From: Bacteroidota bacterium
Lineage (GTDB): Bacteria; Bacteroidota; Bacteroidia; Chitinophagales; Chitinophagaceae
NCBI GenBank assembly: GCA_026391195.1
Contig: JAPLEI010000082.1
Span: 1-36,035 of the forward strand
Reading direction: 5' to 3'
Length of the DNA: 36,035 bases
Part shown: positions 24,665 to 35,960 of the stretch, one piece after another
Layout of the letters: each line of letters opens with the position of its first letter
How positions within the stretch are numbered: position 1 is the first letter of the stretch
Notes under the pieces: generated by a model
Databases searched by the model: none
Told to the model about the DNA's origin: nothing
What the model saw: only the letters and a program-made list of their open reading frames with translations
Translations under genes and position numbers: made by a program

Positions 24665-26458
24665 CTACCAACCGGGATTTTGTGTTATACCAGGATTGTT
24701 ATCAATCTCTGGCTGAGGTATCGGCCAGAGTTTATATTTTGCGTTGGTGTTTGCACGTGTTTGTGCACGGAACCGAATCCGCTGATTGATGCTGGTACTA
24801 TAATCGGGAATATTATTGGCATCAAATACCGGAAGCGCAGCGGGAATAGCAGGATCTAATGAAATACCTACAATTGGAACGCTATTGGCTTTGGCATAAA
24901 TATCCCATCTTCTTAAGTCGAACAACCGCAATCCTTCTCCGGCAAATTCAACGGCTCTTTCTCTGCGAACCAGGGTTCTCAGATCGCTTTGAGCAGCAAG
25001 TGCAGTAGCAGGTTGGCCCGAACGGGCACGAACTGCATTGATAGCTGCAGTTACGGTTGCATCAATTTCATTCAATTCTATTTTCGATTCAGCATACATT
25101 AATAGAATGTCGGCATAACGAAGCAAATTGTAACCAACTTTCGATTCAAATGTATATTGGGTAGAATCGTTGTATTTGTTCCAAACATATCCAACCCCAC
25201 CAATATTTCCGGTTGCACTCACCTGCCACTGAATACCGGCAGCTTGCGCACCAATCCAATCGTTATTACCACCTGCTATATTATCCCACACGCCAGTGTT
25301 CCAGTTGAACTTTCTTCGAACATTGGTATAAATATTAAAAATGGTTCTCTCCCGAAGATTATTGTAAGGAAGTGCAGCTGTTTTAGATGCAAAATGCACC
25401 ATGGTATCACCCGGTTGATAAATACTCCAGGCCAACCGGCGGTCTCTGTTCAATCTTGGATTGGCAGGATCGTAGGTAGTAGAGGCATCAATTCGGTTAC
25501 CGCTTCTGTCTTCAAACTGGTCTACCAGTGCCTGTGATGGGAAATGGCTCGACTGAGAATTGGTTACCTGACGGGGAACACCCAAAATCGGTCCCCAGTT
25601 TTGGGGTTCATTCACATCTGTAGGATAGGTTTGGCAGAATAAAATTTCTCTACCTGCATTGGTATTCTGACCGGCCAGTGAAAACAGGTTCTGAAAAGAA
25701 GGATTCAATGAATACTGGGCACCATCAATAATTGCTTTGGAAGCGGCGGCTGCAGTTTTAAAATCCTTGATTAATAAAGCCAGTTTTGCTTTTATACCCA
25801 GTGCAACGGCTTTGTTTACTTTTCCCAAGGTTTGAACTGGTGCAGTTCCTGCAGCATCGAAGGCAGCAGCGGCCTCATCCAAATCTTTGTTCAAATCCGC
25901 TACAATAGTTGCAACTGCAGTACGTTTTGCACTTAACACTTCAGAAACGGCGGGAGGTGCCTTATAAAAAGGTACATCACCGAACCAGCTAATTAGGTGA
26001 AAATATCCCCAGGCTCTCAGCACCTGTGCTTCTGCTTTAATACGATTGTAAGTGGTTGCCGTAACATTGGCTCTTCCGTTTTCCATACCAGCAATTTGCT
26101 GATTGGCTCTTTGTACCAGCTTATAGGCCTGATTCCAAGCAGCACCTGTAACCGCGTTGTTTACAAGAAACGGTCCGCCATCTCCCATGGCAATCAGGTC
26201 GGCAGCATTACCACCTCTTTTCATAGCCATGTCGGTACTAGCTTCAATTTCGTACAGCATGGGTGTATTATTTGCAATCACCCACATAGAGGAGGCATAT
26301 ACCCCCGTAAGACCCTGTTCCATTTCTGCCTGATTACTTAAGAAAGTAGTAGCAGATGATGCATCCAGCGGCTTCCTGTCGAGAAATTTCTGACAAGCAC
26401 TGAAACTAAGTGCCAGCACTGGAAGCAGCAGTAATAGTTGCTTTTTCATATTATTCAT
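24665..26458 (-). CDS. SusD-like glycan-binding lipoprotein
   Basis: An outer-membrane surface lipoprotein of the SusD/RagB type, binding glycan and capping the SusC porin. The lipobox SFSAC puts the lipidated Cys at residue 22, and the mature start QKFLDRKPLDASSATTFL is typical of SusD. TPR-like helices cover the N-terminal half, and the C-terminal part has the usual RRERAVEFAGEGLRLFDLRRW motif followed by KYKLWPIPQPEIDNNPGITQNPGW. The 597-residue length is normal. It starts 14 bp after the susC stop, as a standard pair. The ligand cannot be deduced; neighbours suggest amino-sugar or mannose-containing glycan. Confidence 0.96.
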   Translation of the reverse strand: MNNMKKQLLLLLPVLALSFSACQKFLDRKPLDASSATTFLSNQAEMEQGLTGVYASSMWVIANNTPMLYEIEASTDMAMKRGGNAADLIAMGDGGPFLVNNAVTGAAWNQAYKLVQRANQQIAGMENGRANVTATTYNRIKAEAQVLRAWGYFHLISWFGDVPFYKAPPAVSEVLSAKRTAVATIVADLNKDLDEAAAAFDAAGTAPVQTLGKVNKAVALGIKAKLALLIKDFKTAAAASKAIIDGAQYSLNPSFQNLFSLAGQNTNAGREILFCQTYPTDVNEPQNWGPILGVPRQVTNSQSSHFPSQALVDQFEDRSGNRIDASTTYDPANPRLNRDRRLAWSIYQPGDTMVHFASKTAALPYNNLRERTIFNIYTNVRRKFNWNTGVWDNIAGGNNDWIGAQAAGIQWQVSATGNIGGVGYVWNKYNDSTQYTFESKVGYNLLRYADILLMYAESKIELNEIDATVTAAINAVRARSGQPATALAAQSDLRTLVRRERAVEFAGEGLRLFDLRRWDIYAKANSVPIVGISLDPAIPAALPVFDANNIPDYSTSINQRIRFRAQTRANTNAKYKLWPIPQPEIDNNPGITQNPGW

Positions 26459-26472
26459 TTTTACTGTTACAG

Positions 26473-29400
26473 TTAAAAGTTAACGTTAATACCTCCGGTG
26501 AATGTGCGCATCAGCGGATAAAATTCTGCATTGGCGCTGTTGATTTCTGGGTCAAATCCTTTCCAGGCATCCGACAAGGTTAGCAAATTGGCACAGCTGA
26601 AATAAACGCGCAGACTGCTAATTTTTGCTTTATTCAACAGCGACTTCGGAATGGTATATCCGATATTGATATTCTTGATACGGAAGTAAGCAGCACTTCT
26701 AATCCATTGACTGGCCAGCAAAAAGTTATTGCCGCCCGATCCAGAAGGAAGGAGTCTAGGGAATAAAGAATTTTGGTTTTCAGGCCGCCAGTAATCTTTA
26801 TGAATATCTAGTAGAGAGGCTGCGAAATCTGCTGAGTTGAATGGAACCGCACCGGTACCGCTCAGGTAGTTATTTCTCATTCCAACGCCCTGACCAAAGA
26901 GGTTGAAATCCCAGTTTCCATAAGTCAGGTTGATGTTGATAGAATATTCATATCTAGGGAAAGAATTTCCAATAAATTTCCGGTCGTTTGCATCAATCTT
27001 TCCATCATTGTTAATATCTGCATAGCGAACATCGCCGGGTTTGGGACCGGTAGTAAGACTAGAGCTCCATGGAATTCCGAATTGAACGGGAGAAATTTTA
27101 ACGTCATTCGAATCGCTGAAGTAACCGGAACTAACATAACCAAAATAAGAGCCCAATGCTTCGCCTGGGGCAGTTCTGATACCATCTCCAATAAAGGGGG
27201 TTCCATCTACCAGACTAACTACTTTATTCTTTACGTCTGAAATCATACCAGTTACATCCACACCCAGTTTGCCGAATTTGTTTCTGTAATTAACCGTAAA
27301 CTCCCATCCTTTGTTTTCCATGTTACCGGCATTTACAAATGGATTAGATAATCCACCTGCAGACTGTGGAAGGGTTCTTTGCAGTAACATATTTTTAAGT
27401 GACTTCACATAATAGTCGGCAGTGAAGGTGAAATGTTTTGCCAAGGTGAGGTCTAACCCGATATTGAATTGACGGGAAGTTTCCCAGCTTAAATCGGGAT
27501 TGGCAAATTGTAATAGGGCAAATCCTAGGTTGGTAGAATTGGCAAAGTAGGCATTGGTACCATTGTTGGGGTTGCTGTATCCTGACTGAGCATAGAAGGC
27601 ATCAAAGGCATAGTTGTTGCCGATATTTTGATTTCCGTTTCCTCCATAAGAAGCACGGAGTTTACCAAATATAATATCCTTACTAAGCGACTCCATGAAT
27701 TTTTCTTTAGAAAAAATCCAGCCGGCAGAAATGGCGCCAAAATTACCCCATTGCTTATCCAGTGCCTGTGAAAAACGAGAGCTACCGTCTCTACGACCAT
27801 TCAGTTCTAGATAATATTTATCGGCATAGCTATAGTTGAAACGGGCAAAGTAACCGGCGAGCGCCAGTTCAGAAGCTCCGGCATTATTATCACGAATACC
27901 AGATCCGAGATTCAGGTAAGGTTGATTTGAATTGATAAAGCCCTGACGGGAAGCACCAAAGAAATAATTGGTAAATAACTCAGACTGACCACCCACTAGT
28001 AATTTAAAGCTATGTGCTCCAATTCTTTTGCTGTAGGTACCCTGTGCGAGATAGGTGGTATATACGTTGTTCGTCCATGCTTCTGATAAGCTGGTTGTTC
28101 CGGGCCAAGTGCCTATCAACGAATAAGAAGAAGTAGCCAGGTTGGGCTGATAAATATTGGCATTGGTTATCCAGGTTTTCGAATTCGGGTTGGTGGTTTG
28201 TCTACCCCAATAGGCTTCCACCTCTAATCCCGTAATCGGATGATAATTAAATCCGGCACGGGTAAGTAAGATATTGTTATTTACAACCGAATTGCCGGTA
28301 GCTTCTGCCATGGCAATGGGATTACGGTTGTTCGATTGGGCAGCGGTTCCATACATACCCGGACCATATTTACCACCTCCAATAGCCGGCAATCCAATAG
28401 CCTGACGGATAACAAATTCGGCCGAACCGGTAGAAGGGTTGGTAGTAATACTGTTCGTGTAAGCAAGTACGCCTATAAGCGAAAGTTTTTTACTCAATTT
28501 GAATTCAGGATTCAGTCGCAGATCATATTTGCTAAATGAACTGTTTGGAATCAATCCCTGTTGCGTTAAATACGTGAATGAGCCAAAAAAATTCATTTTT
28601 TCACTGCCTGCATTCAGTTGAATGTTGTGGTTCTGCATGAGGCCGGTATTGGTTAATACTTCGTTTAACCAATCGGTATCTATAACATCCAGGTTATTGG
28701 CAGGTGTAGTTTTGTATTTATCAATCAATGCCTGCGAAAATAGAAATGCTGCCGGATTGCCGGTTCTGTTTTGCTCTGCCACATTACTCAGCTGCATATG
28801 ATCAATGGCACTTACCCTTTCTGGGATTGCAGTAGCTTGTTGTTTGGTAACAAATCCGTTATAGCTCAATTTCATTTGACCATTTGTTCCCCTTTTCGTT
28901 TTTACCAGCACAACCCCGTTGCTGGCTCTGTTTCCATAAATGGAAGTAGAAGCAGCATCTTTCAGCAGGGTGATACTTTCAATGGCATTGGGGTCTATCA
29001 GATCTAAGGAGCCAATGGCTAATCCGTCTACAATAATCAGCGGAGCACTGCTTCCAGAAATAGATCCTTGTCCACGTATAATAATACTGGCACCATCTGC
29101 ACCGGGTTTTCCGGATTGTTGTTGAACAGTTACCCCAGGAGCCAAACCTTGCAATGCTTGGCTGGTACTGGAAACCTGTCTGCGGTTCAGTGCCTCGTTA
29201 TTGAGGGTAACCAATGATCCGGTTAAGCTGGCCTTTTTCTGTGCGCCATAACCTACCACTACCACTTCACCCAAATCACCAGAAGTGGCCTGGAGAGCTA
29301 CATCGAGCAGGTTACCGGTAACTTTTACTTCTTTGGTTGCAAAACCAATTCCGGAAAATACCAGCTCGGCACCTTTGTCGGCCGGAATGCTAAATTCACC

Positions 29401-29571
29401 ATTTGTTCCGGTTGTGGTGCCGGATTTTTTGCCTTTAACTACAACAGTGATGCCTTCTGCTGGATTACCGGTTCCGGAACTAGTAACCCTACCCGACACC
29501 CTGTTTGTTTGCGCTATCGCCTGCTGAAATAGCAGCAATAACAGGCAAGCAAGGAAAGATAGTTTTTTCAT
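26473..29571 (-). CDS. SusC-like TonB-dependent transporter
   Basis: A 1032-residue outer-membrane transporter for oligosaccharides. A signal peptide ends near AIAQ (residue 21). A carboxypeptidase-regulatory-like domain (about 24-95) follows, then the SusC segment GEVVVVGYGAQKKASLTGS, the plug domain (up to about 230, with LIIVDG and SITLLKDAASTSIYGNRASNGVVLVKTKRG), and a 22-strand barrel ending in a terminal Phe (GGINVNF). There is no extra N-terminal signalling domain, so no anti-sigma partner is expected. It begins 11 bp after the FAD oxidoreductase stop, so it belongs to the AGE-FAD-SusC-SusD operon. Confidence 0.97.
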   Translation of the reverse strand: MKKLSFLACLLLLLFQQAIAQTNRVSGRVTSSGTGNPAEGITVVVKGKKSGTTTGTNGEFSIPADKGAELVFSGIGFATKEVKVTGNLLDVALQATSGDLGEVVVVGYGAQKKASLTGSLVTLNNEALNRRQVSSTSQALQGLAPGVTVQQQSGKPGADGASIIIRGQGSISGSSAPLIIVDGLAIGSLDLIDPNAIESITLLKDAASTSIYGNRASNGVVLVKTKRGTNGQMKLSYNGFVTKQQATAIPERVSAIDHMQLSNVAEQNRTGNPAAFLFSQALIDKYKTTPANNLDVIDTDWLNEVLTNTGLMQNHNIQLNAGSEKMNFFGSFTYLTQQGLIPNSSFSKYDLRLNPEFKLSKKLSLIGVLAYTNSITTNPSTGSAEFVIRQAIGLPAIGGGKYGPGMYGTAAQSNNRNPIAMAEATGNSVVNNNILLTRAGFNYHPITGLEVEAYWGRQTTNPNSKTWITNANIYQPNLATSSYSLIGTWPGTTSLSEAWTNNVYTTYLAQGTYSKRIGAHSFKLLVGGQSELFTNYFFGASRQGFINSNQPYLNLGSGIRDNNAGASELALAGYFARFNYSYADKYYLELNGRRDGSSRFSQALDKQWGNFGAISAGWIFSKEKFMESLSKDIIFGKLRASYGGNGNQNIGNNYAFDAFYAQSGYSNPNNGTNAYFANSTNLGFALLQFANPDLSWETSRQFNIGLDLTLAKHFTFTADYYVKSLKNMLLQRTLPQSAGGLSNPFVNAGNMENKGWEFTVNYRNKFGKLGVDVTGMISDVKNKVVSLVDGTPFIGDGIRTAPGEALGSYFGYVSSGYFSDSNDVKISPVQFGIPWSSSLTTGPKPGDVRYADINNDGKIDANDRKFIGNSFPRYEYSININLTYGNWDFNLFGQGVGMRNNYLSGTGAVPFNSADFAASLLDIHKDYWRPENQNSLFPRLLPSGSGGNNFLLASQWIRSAAYFRIKNINIGYTIPKSLLNKAKISSLRVYFSCANLLTLSDAWKGFDPEINSANAEFYPLMRTFTGGINVNF

Positions 29572-29582
29572 AATTGTTTGTT

Positions 29583-31499
29583 TTAGTTTGAATATTTCGG
29601 TTGAAATTGTCCGTGGAGATTAACACCCAATAAATCGAAAGGATTTACCTGCGTATCTAGCAGCTTGGCAAACTGCACGCGGGTGATGGGTTGATTGGAA
29701 TTAAACAACCCAAACCCCCACTTTTTCCAAAGGGTTGCTATTTGCTTTTTTCGCAGGGGTGGGTTACTCGTGTTCGAAGATCCAGGTACTTGGTTTTGTA
29801 GTACAATGGATTTTACAATTGCCAGGGCCTCATTCCCCGTAAGGAATTCGCCGGCATTCAGTGAAATGGTCTTTCCTGTAAAGGGTTGCAGGTCTATCAG
29901 TAGGCTATCCTTTCGAATCAGCGAATCTGGATAGAACCAGGTTTGATTGGCCCAGGCATTGGGTTTGCCGGTTCCTCTCAATATTCCGGTAGCACCTATT
30001 CGTTGAACCGCTTCGAACTGTGGATGCTTGGCAGGTACATCATAATAAGGCATTAGATAAGCACCCTGTTGTAACAAACTGGCTTGCACCAATCGAACGG
30101 CTACATCAGCCGCATTTGCCTTGCCCTGTTGAACACTCAATGCTGCCAGCGTGCCCGCTGCTTGCCCGGTTAATAATACACAGGGCTGTAACCGGGTGGT
30201 ACCATTGGCCAGGTTAGAAACGCTGATGGCCTTTTCTGCTACAATCAATCCCTCCATATTCGCGGGTAACAATGCGCCTAAGGGAATAGTAAAAGAGGGT
30301 ACCGGATAAAAATCTAAGTGTTGTGGAGCGAGTGGATTTTTTTTGTGGTGATGATCTACCGGATAATCACCTACCGAAATACCGGTGCGGTAAAGGGGTT
30401 CGCCATTGTTATAGGGATTGGCAATATGTTGAATTTTAAATCTCACAATACCCTTTACCCTTCTGCCTTCGCGATGATAGGGAATCAGTGCAAGTTTGTC
30501 TTCGGTTGGAAATTCATCATCCGTCAGTCCCAAATTTTTAAAACCCAATTCATGTTGTATAAAGTATACAAAGCGGAGAGTTGTTTGCCGGGCTTTCGAC
30601 AATTCTACCTGGCGCATCGAATCGGATAACTGAATTACGTTCAAATAAGTATCGTTTCCAAATATTGGCCAGTTGAGCATGTACTTGTTGTTGGGTAGTT
30701 TACCATAGTCCAACATCTTTTTGGCATCAACACCGGGTGCTTTCCGGGAAAGGTCTTTGTAGTAATTGGTGCAACTGCCATCAAATTCTGCGGGATTATA
30801 ACCCACAGGCTTGGCAATGGTACAATCGGCAGCAGCCCCATACGTTTTTAATATTGCAACATAAGTGAGGTCTTGAATAATATCGTTTGTTTCGGCTACC
30901 GGGATATTTTCTCCGGTTAGGCGGTTGGCTTCCATGCCAATGTCGTAGGGCAGTTTTGCCATCTCCAGCAGGTCGCCTAATTCGGTGGCATCAATTACTT
31001 GTTGTGCAAAAATGTATACGGTACGGTTATTCTGCAAATTGCGCAGCACCGCCCCTTTCATATTTTCTCCTTCAACCATTGCCGCGATTGGTTGATGGCG
31101 GAATAGTACTTTCAGGTTCGGCAGGCGAGCCGCCATGCTTTTAAAAATACTGTCGCCAATATGGGGTTCAAATAAGGTATTGCTTACCCATCCGGTTGAT
31201 ACTTTCTTTTCACCGCCATATTTTGTGTACAGCGCATTGCGAAATTCTGCCCATAAACCCGAGGGTAAACTATGGTTACCATCTACTGCACTTACGCCAG
31301 CAGCTGTAAGCATTCCACCCAACCAGGTAGTTGCCTCCGTAATAATTACCTGCCTGCCTAATCGGGCTGCTTGAATGCCTGCAGCGGTTCCTCCCACACC
31401 GCCTCCTACTACTAGTATTTCAGTACGCAGGGTATCCTGCGCAACCATAGCGGTAGAAAGAGAAAGAAGGGGGATTATATGGAGTAGTTTCTTCAGCAG
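29583..31499 (-). CDS. FAD-dependent oxidoreductase, probably secreted, with SLH-like tail
   Basis: A FAD_oxidored (PF12831-type) enzyme: ILVVGGGVGGTAAG holds the dinucleotide-binding GxGxxG, and WLGGMLTAAGVSAVDG and VIDATELGDLLEMA are family motifs. The first ATG is at 31448, but the frame remains open upstream and encodes LLKKLLHIIPLLSLSTA before MVAQ, a good Sec signal peptide. Only CTG (31499 or 31496) or ATT (31505) could start it. I give the CTG at 31499, with 638 residues; the ATG form has 621. The last 150 residues resemble S-layer homology repeats (RIGATGILRGTGK...TWFYP; PITRVQFAKLLD). It lies between AGE and susC in one operon. Substrate unknown. Confidence 0.85.
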   Translation of the reverse strand: MLKKLLHIIPLLSLSTAMVAQDTLRTEILVVGGGVGGTAAGIQAARLGRQVIITEATTWLGGMLTAAGVSAVDGNHSLPSGLWAEFRNALYTKYGGEKKVSTGWVSNTLFEPHIGDSIFKSMAARLPNLKVLFRHQPIAAMVEGENMKGAVLRNLQNNRTVYIFAQQVIDATELGDLLEMAKLPYDIGMEANRLTGENIPVAETNDIIQDLTYVAILKTYGAAADCTIAKPVGYNPAEFDGSCTNYYKDLSRKAPGVDAKKMLDYGKLPNNKYMLNWPIFGNDTYLNVIQLSDSMRQVELSKARQTTLRFVYFIQHELGFKNLGLTDDEFPTEDKLALIPYHREGRRVKGIVRFKIQHIANPYNNGEPLYRTGISVGDYPVDHHHKKNPLAPQHLDFYPVPSFTIPLGALLPANMEGLIVAEKAISVSNLANGTTRLQPCVLLTGQAAGTLAALSVQQGKANAADVAVRLVQASLLQQGAYLMPYYDVPAKHPQFEAVQRIGATGILRGTGKPNAWANQTWFYPDSLIRKDSLLIDLQPFTGKTISLNAGEFLTGNEALAIVKSIVLQNQVPGSSNTSNPPLRKKQIATLWKKWGFGLFNSNQPITRVQFAKLLDTQVNPFDLLGVNLHGQFQPKYSN

Positions 31500-31509
31500 A
31501 AAAATTTAT

Positions 31510-32709
31510 TTAAGATTCGAGAGATGATAAGGTATGGGCAACCTGATATAAAGCACGGGGAATATGGAAACAACCCTTCCATTTGCCACCCTTCAGGGGC
31601 GTAAGCACTTGCCCTTGTCTGTTCAGGTAGCCGAACCATTCTCCCTGCTCTTTATCTTTAAAATGTTTCCAGGTATACTCATGTAATTTTTTAAACCAAG
31701 GCACGCATCTGGCATCTCCCGTAAATGCATAGGCTTTTGCCAGGGCAACCAGTGCTTCTACATGCACCCACCAAAGTTTTTGATCCCACTCCAGCTGCTG
31801 CATAGGGTATCCCTTCACATCCTGAAAGTAAAAGATACCGCCATGTTCCTTATCCCAACCGAGTTCCAGCATATCAAACAGAATGGTTACGGCACGTTGA
31901 ATCAACGCTTCATCTTTCATTCTTTTACCCAGATCCATAATAAACCACATGGCTTCAATGGCGTGCCCGGGATTTAACAGTCTTCCCTCAAAACTATTCG
32001 AAAAGGAACCATCGGGTTGAACATTTTCCAATACCACTTTCCATTCCCGATTATAAAAAACTTCCATCACTTCATGGATAACTTCGGGCACAAAACTGTT
32101 CACTCTTTCGGTTCCTAACAGGTGTTCCAGCTCGAGCGACAGATTGCACAAAATCATGGGCAAGCTGAAATTCTTCAGGGGTCGGGTTCCGGGATAGGCT
32201 TTGTTATATTTCCCCTTGGTATTATTTTTTCTGGCAATGATATTTTCAAAAGTGCTCAGGGCGATATCTTTATATTCGTCGGAAGGTTGAATTCTATCTA
32301 AGGCTGCAAACGCCATGGTGGCAAAGCAATCGCTGAATATATTATAGGGCTGTACCAGGGGCTGTCCGTTGGCAGTAAGTGAAAAATACCAGTTACCCGA
32401 TTCATCTCGGCCATGTTGTTGCATAAACCGGGCACCATGTAAAGCCATTGCTAACCACTCTTGCTTGGGAGCTACATGCTGATACATATAACTGAAACAC
32501 CAAACCTGCCTTCCCTGCAGCCACATAAATTTATCGGTATCGTATACCTGGCCAGCTCTATCTAAACAAGTAAAAAATCCTCCATTTTGCTCGTCCTTAC
32601 TATTATGCAGCCAAAAGGGGAGAATATTATTAACCAATTCATCCTGATACATACCCGCATACGATTGTAAAGATTGCTCGGGAGCTGTTTTCAATGTTTC
32701 TAATTCCAT
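31510..32709 (-). CDS. AGE-family N-acylglucosamine 2-epimerase
   Basis: A cytoplasmic (alpha/alpha)6-barrel epimerase interconverting GlcNAc and ManNAc, closest by motif to renin-binding-protein-type GlcNAc 2-epimerases. Residues: MWLQGRQVWCFSYMY (62-76) with the conserved Arg; EGRLLNPGHAIEAMWF (241-256) with His249; and KGGKWKGCFHIPR (373-385) with Cys380 and His382, matching the residues reported as important in the mammalian enzyme. The 399-residue length is standard. Cellobiose/mannobiose epimerases of the same fold are an alternative, but the GKWKGCFH segment favours the N-acetyl type. First gene of the AGE-FAD-SusC-SusD operon, divergent from the ROK gene. Confidence 0.9.
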   Translation of the reverse strand: MELETLKTAPEQSLQSYAGMYQDELVNNILPFWLHNSKDEQNGGFFTCLDRAGQVYDTDKFMWLQGRQVWCFSYMYQHVAPKQEWLAMALHGARFMQQHGRDESGNWYFSLTANGQPLVQPYNIFSDCFATMAFAALDRIQPSDEYKDIALSTFENIIARKNNTKGKYNKAYPGTRPLKNFSLPMILCNLSLELEHLLGTERVNSFVPEVIHEVMEVFYNREWKVVLENVQPDGSFSNSFEGRLLNPGHAIEAMWFIMDLGKRMKDEALIQRAVTILFDMLELGWDKEHGGIFYFQDVKGYPMQQLEWDQKLWWVHVEALVALAKAYAFTGDARCVPWFKKLHEYTWKHFKDKEQGEWFGYLNRQGQVLTPLKGGKWKGCFHIPRALYQVAHTLSSLES

Positions 32710-32731
32710 GAAGGCACCTATAGTTAGTAAT

Positions 32732-32821
32732 CAAATAAAAGATAAGTACGGCAATATCTTAAAAATATTACAAATAACCCAATACTTAATAAAATAATTT
32801 ATTTAGTTGAGGCTTTCTTTG
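32732..32821. promoter_or_regulatory. Divergent promoters of AGE operon and ROK gene (tentative)
   Basis: TTTATTTG on the minus strand (32732-32739) and TTTCTTTG on the plus strand (32814-32821) each match the Bacteroidota -7 consensus TAnnTTTG at 5 of its 6 fixed positions. They would place starts about 16 nt before the AGE ATG and about 55 nt before the ROK ATG. No clear -33 elements accompany them. Confidence 0.3.
32784..32807. promoter_or_regulatory. Candidate ROK operator, inverted repeat
   Basis: ACTTAATAAA (32784-32793) and TTTATTTAGT (32798-32807) form an inverted repeat with 9 of 10 pairs and a 4-base spacer, between the divergent AGE operon and ROK gene. ROK repressors such as NagC and Mlc bind long A+T-rich palindromes of similar build. 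It would cover the -33 region of the tentative ROK promoter. Confidence 0.5.
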
Positions 32822-32881
32822 CAGTTTTTATCGAAAAATCAAACTAAATTGTCCCTGTTTTCACCCGAATTACAAGCTGGT

Positions 32882-34114
32882 ATGGCACGTAACCGTATTT
32901 TTTCCGATGTATTTAACGAAGAGACTTCTTCCGGGGTCGCCCTGAAAAACAAGGCACTTAAAAAGCTGATTTTTAATATATTAGATAAAGCCGACAGCAG
33001 TTCTATTACCGAGATCAGCAAGGAATTGAACATCAGTGTACCCAAAACAACCAGTTTAATCAATGAATTGATTGAAGATCGATTGATCAGCGATTATGGA
33101 AAGATTGATTCTACTGGGGGGCGAAAAGCCAGTATGTATGGGTTGGTGGCGGAAGCCTGTTTCTTTTTAGGGGTGGATGTGAAGAAATATTACGTGAATA
33201 TTGGCTTGATGGATTTTAAGAAGCACCTCGTTACCCAAAAAACCAAGATCCCCTTCCGCCTCGAAAATACCCAGGCTTCTCTTTCACAACTGATTCAATT
33301 AATTAACCAGTTTATTAAAGAGGCGCCGGTAAAGAAAGATAAGATATTGAGTATGGGCATCAATCTTTCGGGGCGTATCAATCATACCATTGGGTATAGC
33401 TATAGCTTCTTCCATTTTCAGGAAGAGCCTTTATCCGGCATCATCGAAAGCAAAACCGGCATAAAAACTTATCTCGAAAACGACTCACGGGCCATGGCCT
33501 ATGGCGAATTTATGTGCGGGGAAGTGAGTACCGAGAAGAACGTACTTTTTGTGAACGTAGACTATGGCGTGGGCTTGGGCATTTTAATAGACGGAAAAAT
33601 TTATTATGGTAAGTCGGGATTCAGCGGCGAATTTGGACATGCCCCCATTTTTGAGAATGAAATTATTTGTCATTGCGGAAAAAAAGGTTGTCTCGAAACT
33701 GAAGCTTCCGGCACTGCCCTTATCCGACGGTTTCGCGAACGGATTCAGGAGGGCTCTTCCTCTTCTGTTGTAAAGAAAGTAAAAAACCTGAACGACCTTA
33801 CGGTTACCGATTTAATACAGGCTGCCAATGCGGAGGATATGCTCTGCATCGAACTACTGGCAGAAGTAGGCGAGAAACTGGGAAAGGGATTGGCGGCACT
33901 TATCAATGTGTTTAATCCCGAACTGATCATTTTAGGAAGAACCCTATCCGAAACTGGCGATTACCTTCGATTGCCCACCAAAAGTGCTATTAATAAGTTT
34001 TCATTGAGCTTGGTAAATACAGATACACAGCTAAAGCTCTCGCGGCTGGGGGAGAAAGCGGGGGTGCTGGGGGCTTGCCTGCTGGCCAGAAATAAAGTGC
34101 TTACTGTTTTTTAA
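32882..34114 (+). CDS. ROK-family transcriptional regulator
   Basis: A NagC/XylR-type regulator: an N-terminal winged helix-turn-helix (SSITEISKELNISVPKTTSLINELIEDRLIS) followed by a ROK sugar-kinase-like domain with the zinc motif CHCGKKGCLE and GFSGEFGHAP. The ATG at 32882 gives 410 residues and starts just before the DNA-binding domain; a TTG at 32807 would add 25 residues without family support and overlap the inverted repeat. The N-terminal helix makes a regulator more likely than a glucokinase. It is divergent from the AGE operon and is the best candidate to control the whole locus in response to an amino sugar, as NagC does with GlcNAc-6-P. Confidence 0.9.
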   Translation: MARNRIFSDVFNEETSSGVALKNKALKKLIFNILDKADSSSITEISKELNISVPKTTSLINELIEDRLISDYGKIDSTGGRKASMYGLVAEACFFLGVDVKKYYVNIGLMDFKKHLVTQKTKIPFRLENTQASLSQLIQLINQFIKEAPVKKDKILSMGINLSGRINHTIGYSYSFFHFQEEPLSGIIESKTGIKTYLENDSRAMAYGEFMCGEVSTEKNVLFVNVDYGVGLGILIDGKIYYGKSGFSGEFGHAPIFENEIICHCGKKGCLETEASGTALIRRFRERIQEGSSSSVVKKVKNLNDLTVTDLIQAANAEDMLCIELLAEVGEKLGKGLAALINVFNPELIILGRTLSETGDYLRLPTKSAINKFSLSLVNTDTQLKLSRLGEKAGVLGACLLARNKVLTVF

Positions 34115-34183
34115 GGGGGGAAGCTTTCTCGAACACTTGTTACGATTGCACCTATATAACACATCCTTCTATCATACATTCAA

Positions 34184-35461
34184 ATGGCATGCATGAAATA
34201 TTGTTTATCTATTTTATTGCTCTTGTTTGCTAGCAACGCAAAAGCGCAATGCGATACGGCCCTTCGTCCCGTAGTTTTTGTTCATGGGTTTCTCGCCTCC
34301 GGAGATACCTGGGCGAATGCTGTTCATTATTTTCAACAAGCCGGCTATTGCGCTAATCGTATCTATGCATTTGATTGGAACAGTGTTGGGGGGAATGGAA
34401 AGCGAACTGATAGTTTGTTGCATCAATTTATTGAGCAAATTCTTATACAAACTGGGGCAAGCCAAGTTGACCTCGTAGGGCATTCAGCCGGTGGCGGACT
34501 GGGCAGAAATTACCTGAAAGACAGTTTGCATGCTAAAAACATAGCCCATTATGTTCATATAGGTAGCCGAAAGTGGACTAGCGCCTATGCCTGGTTTCCG
34601 AACAACAGGTGTATGAATATTTTCTCTTCCGGAGACAAGGTTGCAGCTAATACGGCGGGCTTGGTAGAGGGAGCTTTCAATCTTGCATTGGAGGAGCAGG
34701 ACCATTATCAGGTAGCTACCAGCGATACTTCCATCAAATCGATGCTGCAATTTTTTACTGGTAAACAAATGTTCCTCCCTAACATTAAACCCAGCAGAAA
34801 AGTTACACTCTCCGGTAAGGCATTGATTTTGGGAGATAATACCGCCATGTCGGATGCGGTAATTAATATTTATCCGATTAATAAAAAGAACGGACAGCGG
34901 AAACAATCGGATCAACCCATACGTTTGCAAACCGATCAAGCGGGTGCCTGGGGGCCAGTTACCCTTCGTGCGGGAATCCCTCATGAGATGGAACTAATTC
35001 CGGCGGGAGCGAATAAGCGCATCATTTCTTATTTTTTTCCGAGGTTTGATTATTCCAATCCACTGGTATACCTGCGGGGATTTCCAGAAGATGGTCGCAT
35101 GACTTTTCTATTAGGAAAAATTCCTGCAATTGAAAACCAATCAACGCTGGTAGTGTATTCAGCCGCACAGGCGATGGTGGGTGGCAGGGATTCGGTTACC
35201 GTTAATGGATTGCCTATATGTTCCCCCTCGTTAACGCCTGCATCAAAAACTGCCATCACCAGTTTCTTGTTTGATGATGGAGATGCAATCAATTCCGGGA
35301 AAGCGTTGAAACAATTTTCGAATGTACCGTTTATTGGTGGAGTGGATATGGTATTACCTGCCAATGCCAAAGAGGGGATACGTATGTATTATAATGGGCA
35401 ACAACTTACCCTGCCTGCTCGGCCTTCTAAGGAAAGAATATTGTTGGCAGTGTTTAGATAA
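34184..35461 (+). CDS. Secreted lipase-like alpha/beta hydrolase
   Basis: A 425-residue secreted serine hydrolase (class-2 lipase-like). The signal peptide ends near NAKAQ (residue 22; a start at the ATG at 34193 is equally possible). The oxyanion-hole segment is VVFVHGFLASG (30-40), and the nucleophile elbow GHSAGG (99-104) contains Ser101. About residues 205-425 form a second, beta-rich part with repeated 'LSGKALILGD', 'INIYPIN' patterns, as in some lipases with C-terminal barrel domains. It follows the ROK gene after 69 bp on the same strand but has no visible link to sugar use. Substrate: esters or lipids by family; not determined. Confidence 0.82.
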   Translation: MACMKYCLSILLLLFASNAKAQCDTALRPVVFVHGFLASGDTWANAVHYFQQAGYCANRIYAFDWNSVGGNGKRTDSLLHQFIEQILIQTGASQVDLVGHSAGGGLGRNYLKDSLHAKNIAHYVHIGSRKWTSAYAWFPNNRCMNIFSSGDKVAANTAGLVEGAFNLALEEQDHYQVATSDTSIKSMLQFFTGKQMFLPNIKPSRKVTLSGKALILGDNTAMSDAVINIYPINKKNGQRKQSDQPIRLQTDQAGAWGPVTLRAGIPHEMELIPAGANKRIISYFFPRFDYSNPLVYLRGFPEDGRMTFLLGKIPAIENQSTLVVYSAAQAMVGGRDSVTVNGLPICSPSLTPASKTAITSFLFDDGDAINSGKALKQFSNVPFIGGVDMVLPANAKEGIRMYYNGQQLTLPARPSKERILLAVFR

Positions 35462-35960
35462 TGGCACAGCCAACTCATCCGAGAGCTTCAACTATCAAAA
35501 TTATATCAATATCCTTTGTAGCTCTAAAATGCAAATCCTTTTGTTCCATATGCCAATCACAAGCGCTGCCCCCAAATAAAATCCCTACTCATTTAATCCA
35601 CAAATCAATAGTAATCATTATCAATTTTATTTTAGATTTGTATTGTTGGTTATAATGATACTGCAATGGCCTATCAAATGTAAAAGCAATGGATTGCAAA
35701 ATCAATATTTGATTTGATATCCTGCCAACTTTGTATATATTCTTCTACTAGTTAATAATAAATAGTAAAGTGGTTTCCCTCCCTCCTTTAATTATGGCAT
35801 GATAATTGTTTTGGTTCCAAAACCGATTAACCCAAAACCTGCCATTATGAAAAATTTACACTATTGTCCGACTAAAATATAATAAAACTGGCATAAAAAG
35901 GGCAGTTCCTAAGAACCGCCCATAATCGTTAAGTTTGGTTTACCACAACTAAACATTACG
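35462..35960. other. Non-coding stretch running into the left end of an insertion sequence
   Basis: A 499-bp A+T-rich stretch with no credible gene. From roughly 35865 (CTATTGTCCGACTAAAATA) the composition changes and the sequence leads into the transposase start, so the element's left end probably lies near 35865-35875. The right end and any target duplication are outside the window. Confidence 0.55.
35900..35921. terminator. Hairpin inside the insertion sequence leader
   Basis: GGGCAGTTC (35900-35908) and GAACCGCCC (35913-35921) form a 9-bp stem with one A/C mismatch and a 4-base loop. On the minus strand it is followed by TTTTT, which would make a terminator for transcription leaving the element leftwards. 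On the plus strand it lies 40 bp before the transposase ATG. Confidence 0.5.

Follow-up and report, generated by a model that had tools for sequence, protein, structure and literature searches.

In bacteria, CUG makes up 0.024% of start codons, and in E. coli it gives 0.86% of the initiation obtained with AUG (figures quoted in PMC11497404). A multi-genome survey found the switch from TTG to CTG at 1 in 2,468 ancestral UUG starts (PMC5622118). Bacteroidota are naturally without Shine-Dalgarno sequences, and in Flavobacterium johnsoniae initiation is helped by weak structure and by an A at position -3 (PMC6847099). A literature search found nothing specific to the case described here.

The DNA analysed is a stretch of 36,035 nucleotides, hereafter the window (contig JAPLEI010000082.1 of assembly GCA_026391195.1, a Bacteroidota bacterium of the Chitinophagaceae). 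It encodes an FAD-dependent oxidoreductase whose translation most likely starts at a CTG codon. Starts of this type are known, although rare. As in other rare bacterial CUG starts, CTG replaces ATG, GTG or TTG, and the switch from TTG has a precedent (PMC5622118), whereas the present case was deduced by comparison only and concerns a Bacteroidota gene located 10 nt past another stop, in two lineages. The exported PF12831 oxidoreductases found beside an N-acylglucosamine 2-epimerase in Chitinophagaceae have the same domain, a hydrophobic leader ending in AQ and the same neighbourhood; the start codon alone differs, most relatives having ATG and the nearest ones TTG. As in the non-Shine-Dalgarno initiation of F. 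johnsoniae (PMC6847099), there is no Shine-Dalgarno-like site and the leader is weakly folded and A/T-rich, but a T takes the place of the favourable A at -3 of CTG 31499.

The oxidoreductase gene is on the minus strand (Table 1). A preliminary description had proposed that a signal peptide was hidden upstream of its first ATG, with CTG 31499, CTG 31496 and ATT 31505 as the only available starts. On re-reading, both the encoded peptide, LLKKLLHIIPLLSLSTA-MVAQ, and these near-cognate codons proved exact. The reading frame is bounded by a TAA stop at 31508-31506, while the TAA stop of the epimerase is at 31512-31510. The codons that follow are ATT(31505) TTT CTG(31499) CTG(31496) AAG AAA CTA CTC CAT ATA and then ATC CCC CTT CTT TCT CTT TCT ACC GCT ATG(31448) GTT GCG CAG. 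Between the stop at 31508 and ATG 31448, the window has no ATG, GTG or TTG in frame, ATG 31448 being the first such codon.

Table 1. Features of the oxidoreductase locus (positions in the window).
Feature	Position	Strand	Remarks
CTG, most likely start codon	31497..31499	-	Common to L028; aligned with the TTG of L109; 10 nt past the epimerase stop
Second CTG, alternative start	31494..31496	-	Aligns with TTG-AAG-AAA of L030; CTA in L028
ATT, alternative start	31503..31505	-	TCT in L028
First ATG of the frame	31446..31448	-	In the c-region of the predicted signal peptide; not conserved in L028
Predicted signal-peptide coding segment, (M/L)LKKLLHIIPLLSLSTAMVA	31440..31499	-	Conserved with L028 at the protein level; hydrophobic N-terminal segment in 114/114 homologues
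Mature FAD-dependent oxidoreductase, from Q of AQDTLRTE	29583..31439	-	PF12831, 6.6e-88; NG86 comparison with L028
Upstream operon gene, N-acylglucosamine 2-epimerase	31510..32709	-	PF07221, 6.8e-74; NF052547 above cut-off; immediate upstream neighbour in many relatives
Downstream operon gene, SusC/RagA outer-membrane receptor	26473..29571	-	TIGR04056; 11 nt past the FAD gene
SusD-family lipoprotein, next in operon	24665..26458	-	PF07980

The product matches the PF12831 profile over its full length (296.2 bits, cut-off 27; profile positions 1-416 of 416), and comparison with solved structures gave marginal matches only, to the FAD-binding fold. The next two genes of the operon follow after intergenic gaps of 11 and 14 nt. 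The pair formed by the epimerase (31510-32709) and the FAD oxidoreductase (29583-31499) is conserved in many Chitinophagaceae. In the case of the ROK gene at window positions 32807-34114, the mechanically called TTG start is probably too far upstream, and the ATG of MARNRIF is likelier.

The segment preceding MVAQ displays features of a Sec type I signal peptide, with KK in the n-region, a LLHIIPLLSL core and A at -1 before the Q. For a cleavage before this Q the residue at -3 is Met, which is atypical (V in L028, the nearest full-length relative), while cleavage after STA would follow the canonical pattern. A crude signal-peptide rule was applied to every 21-codon stretch of the window that lacks a stop. 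It was passed by 1,139 of the 30,035 stretches (3.8%, about 1 in 26), so that the hydrophobic stretch, taken from the sequence alone, is only suggestive. The leaders of the window and of L028 both pass this rule.

L028 comes from another MAG, where it lies on the same contig as G036/L003, and it is 93.3% identical to the window at the nucleotide level over 5.1 kb. The leader reads LLKKLLHIIPLLSLSTAMVAQ in the window and LLKKLLHIIPFLSLTLTGVVSAQ in L028. Their first 48 nt differ at 15 positions, 10 of them third codon positions, and 13 of the 16 residues are identical; randomly placed changes reached this identity in 2.2e-4 of simulated trials. Because L028 keeps the residues despite the nucleotide changes, the leader can be regarded as a real protein-coding segment. 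CTG 31499 is the sole one of the proposed start codons to be preserved in L028. Among the comparable CTG codons of the gene, 15 of 19 are unchanged between the two sequences, and the identity of this codon, taken alone, is weak evidence. A base-calling error at the CTG is very unlikely, the same codon being present in an independent MAG. Entry by frameshift from another frame was also rejected: neither of the two other frames has an ATG, GTG or TTG just upstream, as read by eye in the window and in L028.

Homologous loci were collected by scanning GTDB genome contigs and by searching the whole genomes of relatives, of the genus and of the family. A simple rule assigned their starts, so that single rows may err, but the rows nearest to the window were read by eye; L052, L061 and L063, left without a start by the script, have ATG, and L028 was taken as CTG. 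The 114 distinct homologues start with ATG (98), TTG (12), GTG (2) or CTG (2, the window and L028). A hydrophobic N-terminal segment is present in all 114, in some with a lipobox-like Cys (three mis-scored rows were corrected by eye), and it is headed by ATG, TTG or GTG in every homologue except the window and L028. Relatives starting at the equivalent of MVAQ and devoid of such a segment were looked for and amounted to 0 of 114. The hidden signal-peptide segment is thus backed both by its conservation in L028 and by the homologues, and the original reading of it stands.

Starts other than ATG turn up repeatedly among these oxidoreductases (16 of the 114 distinct homologues), with 8 changes on a tree of 62. 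TTG was found in L030, L031, L033, L109, L110, L127, L133, L134, L135, L140, L116 and L055, and GTG in L005 and L132. The upstream epimerase, used as a control, has ATG in nearly all cases (39 of 45 rows, counting duplicates, with truncated or masked rows among the others). In a maximum-likelihood tree of the mature part, the window grouped with L028 and L029 (support 100) and then with L030 (100), followed further out by L031 and L109 (96) and by L110/L127 (96). These closest outgroups, L030, L031, L109, L110 and L127, all have a TTG start. In register, L109 reads TTG CTG AAA CGA, the window CTG CTG AAG AAA, and L028 CTG CTA AAA AAA.

The preliminary description had offered two possibilities, a rare start codon or the loss of an ATG, and had suggested looking for an ATG at the equivalent position in close relatives. 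No such ATG is found there, L028 having CTG and the five nearest outgroups TTG. The non-ATG start is supported by the homologues, through the CTG shared with L028 and the aligned TTG of L109, but the loss of an ATG is not, a TTG having probably been replaced instead. Since the closest outgroups all use TTG, the likely and simplest history is a change from TTG to CTG at 31499 before the split of the window and L028.

Taken together, these features make it quite probable that this gene, part of an epimerase-FAD-SusC-SusD operon, specifies a PF12831 FAD oxidoreductase exported by Sec and that its translation starts at CTG 31499, a codon derived from TTG. The predicted enzyme would be of an ordinary type, its CTG start being unusual and backed by relatives. 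We infer that ribosomes really start at this CTG and that export occurs by Sec. The codon would be read as fMet by the ordinary initiator tRNA, and the precursor, MLKKLLHIIPLLSLSTAMVA-QDTLRTE..., would be cleaved near the A/Q junction. A TTG start was already the rule in this branch, and one T-to-C change would have been enough to turn it into CTG.

The surroundings of the CTG are consistent with such an initiation. The mRNA around it belongs to the most weakly folded parts of the region (-2.9 kcal/mol versus a local mean of -11.2). The distance from the epimerase stop is 10 nt in the window and in L028, much like the gaps ahead of the next two operon genes, and 5, 17 and 13 nt in L030, L031 and L109, respectively. 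A CTG placed 10 nt past the epimerase stop in poorly structured mRNA fits translational coupling, and it is reasonable to suppose that ribosomes leaving the epimerase reinitiate in this A/T-rich stretch and thereby help the weak codon. A relaxed initiator tRNA was ruled out by the normal GGG-CTCATAA-CCC anticodon arm, with three G-C pairs, of the initiator tRNA of this genome. Among the homologues, ATG is often abandoned where the oxidoreductase gene sits just behind the epimerase stop: a gene end lies close upstream in 12 of 16 non-ATG loci versus 35 of 98 others (Fisher p = 0.005). This association is not established, because on correction for relatedness independent tree pairs give a median p of 0.375.

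It could also be that the signal peptide is real and that translation starts at another near-cognate codon, CTG 31496 or ATT 31505, with L028 starting elsewhere, for instance at an inner TTG. In L030, L031 and L110, Lys-Lys is immediately preceded by a TTG, which aligns with CTG 31496, and an A-rich region precedes ATT 31505, but neither codon persists in L028, where they are replaced by CTA and TCT. The segment of L028 has no ATG or GTG and a single in-frame TTG, four codons in; a start there would give a shorter leader deprived of both lysines, and the equivalent codon of the window is CTA. We therefore hold a start at these other codons to be unlikely. The change from TTG to CTG might instead have largely silenced the gene, its loss being under way, given how poorly CTG initiates in E. 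coli (PMC11497404). This appears still less likely in view of the intact frame, of a CTG common to two lineages (93% nucleotide identity), and of the NG86 values of the mature part between the window and L028 (dN 0.033, dS 0.27, dN/dS about 0.12). The purifying selection on the mature protein makes continued expression of the gene probable and, as the codon is common to the window and L028, this selection would have acted while both lineages had CTG. Finally, a cytosolic enzyme starting at ATG 31448 (MVAQ) behind an untranslated remnant would agree with this codon being the first ATG and the choice of a gene caller using ATG, GTG and TTG, but it is highly improbable given that L028 has no such ATG, that synonymous changes have preserved the residues encoded upstream (P about 2e-4) and that every homologue looks exported or lipoprotein-like.

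A different arrangement was observed in L029, a very close relative located on a short contig. Starting at the A/Q junction of AQDTLRTE, it is 95% identical to the window (31442 down to 30001), and beyond, in the lipase gene, the identity is 92% (window 34157-35476). In between (L029 positions 2704-2810, compared with window 31443-34156), the ROK gene, the epimerase and the window-type leader are absent, and an unrelated stretch of 107 nt brings an ATG and another signal peptide, joined in frame exactly at the mature part. An assembly fault or a chimera is possible, but an ATG-started leader in frame by accident is unlikely. This comparison suggests that export of the oxidoreductase was kept even after replacement of its leader. 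At the contig end, L029:4253-4403 leaves the window homology and resembles ankyrin repeats when read on the reverse strand.

The CTG start at 31499 might have a role of its own. With reinitiation after the epimerase, codons as weak as CTG could serve to keep the exported oxidoreductase at a deliberately low dose, in which case CTG would be a maintained tuning device and not a tolerated mutation; we consider this idea tentative and rather doubtful. Gene callers that accept only ATG, GTG and TTG would delete the export signal of this enzyme and misplace it in the cytoplasm. With ATG, GTG, TTG and CTG all occurring at one gene, this oxidoreductase family would offer a natural series on the tolerance of weak starts behind an upstream stop in Bacteroidota.
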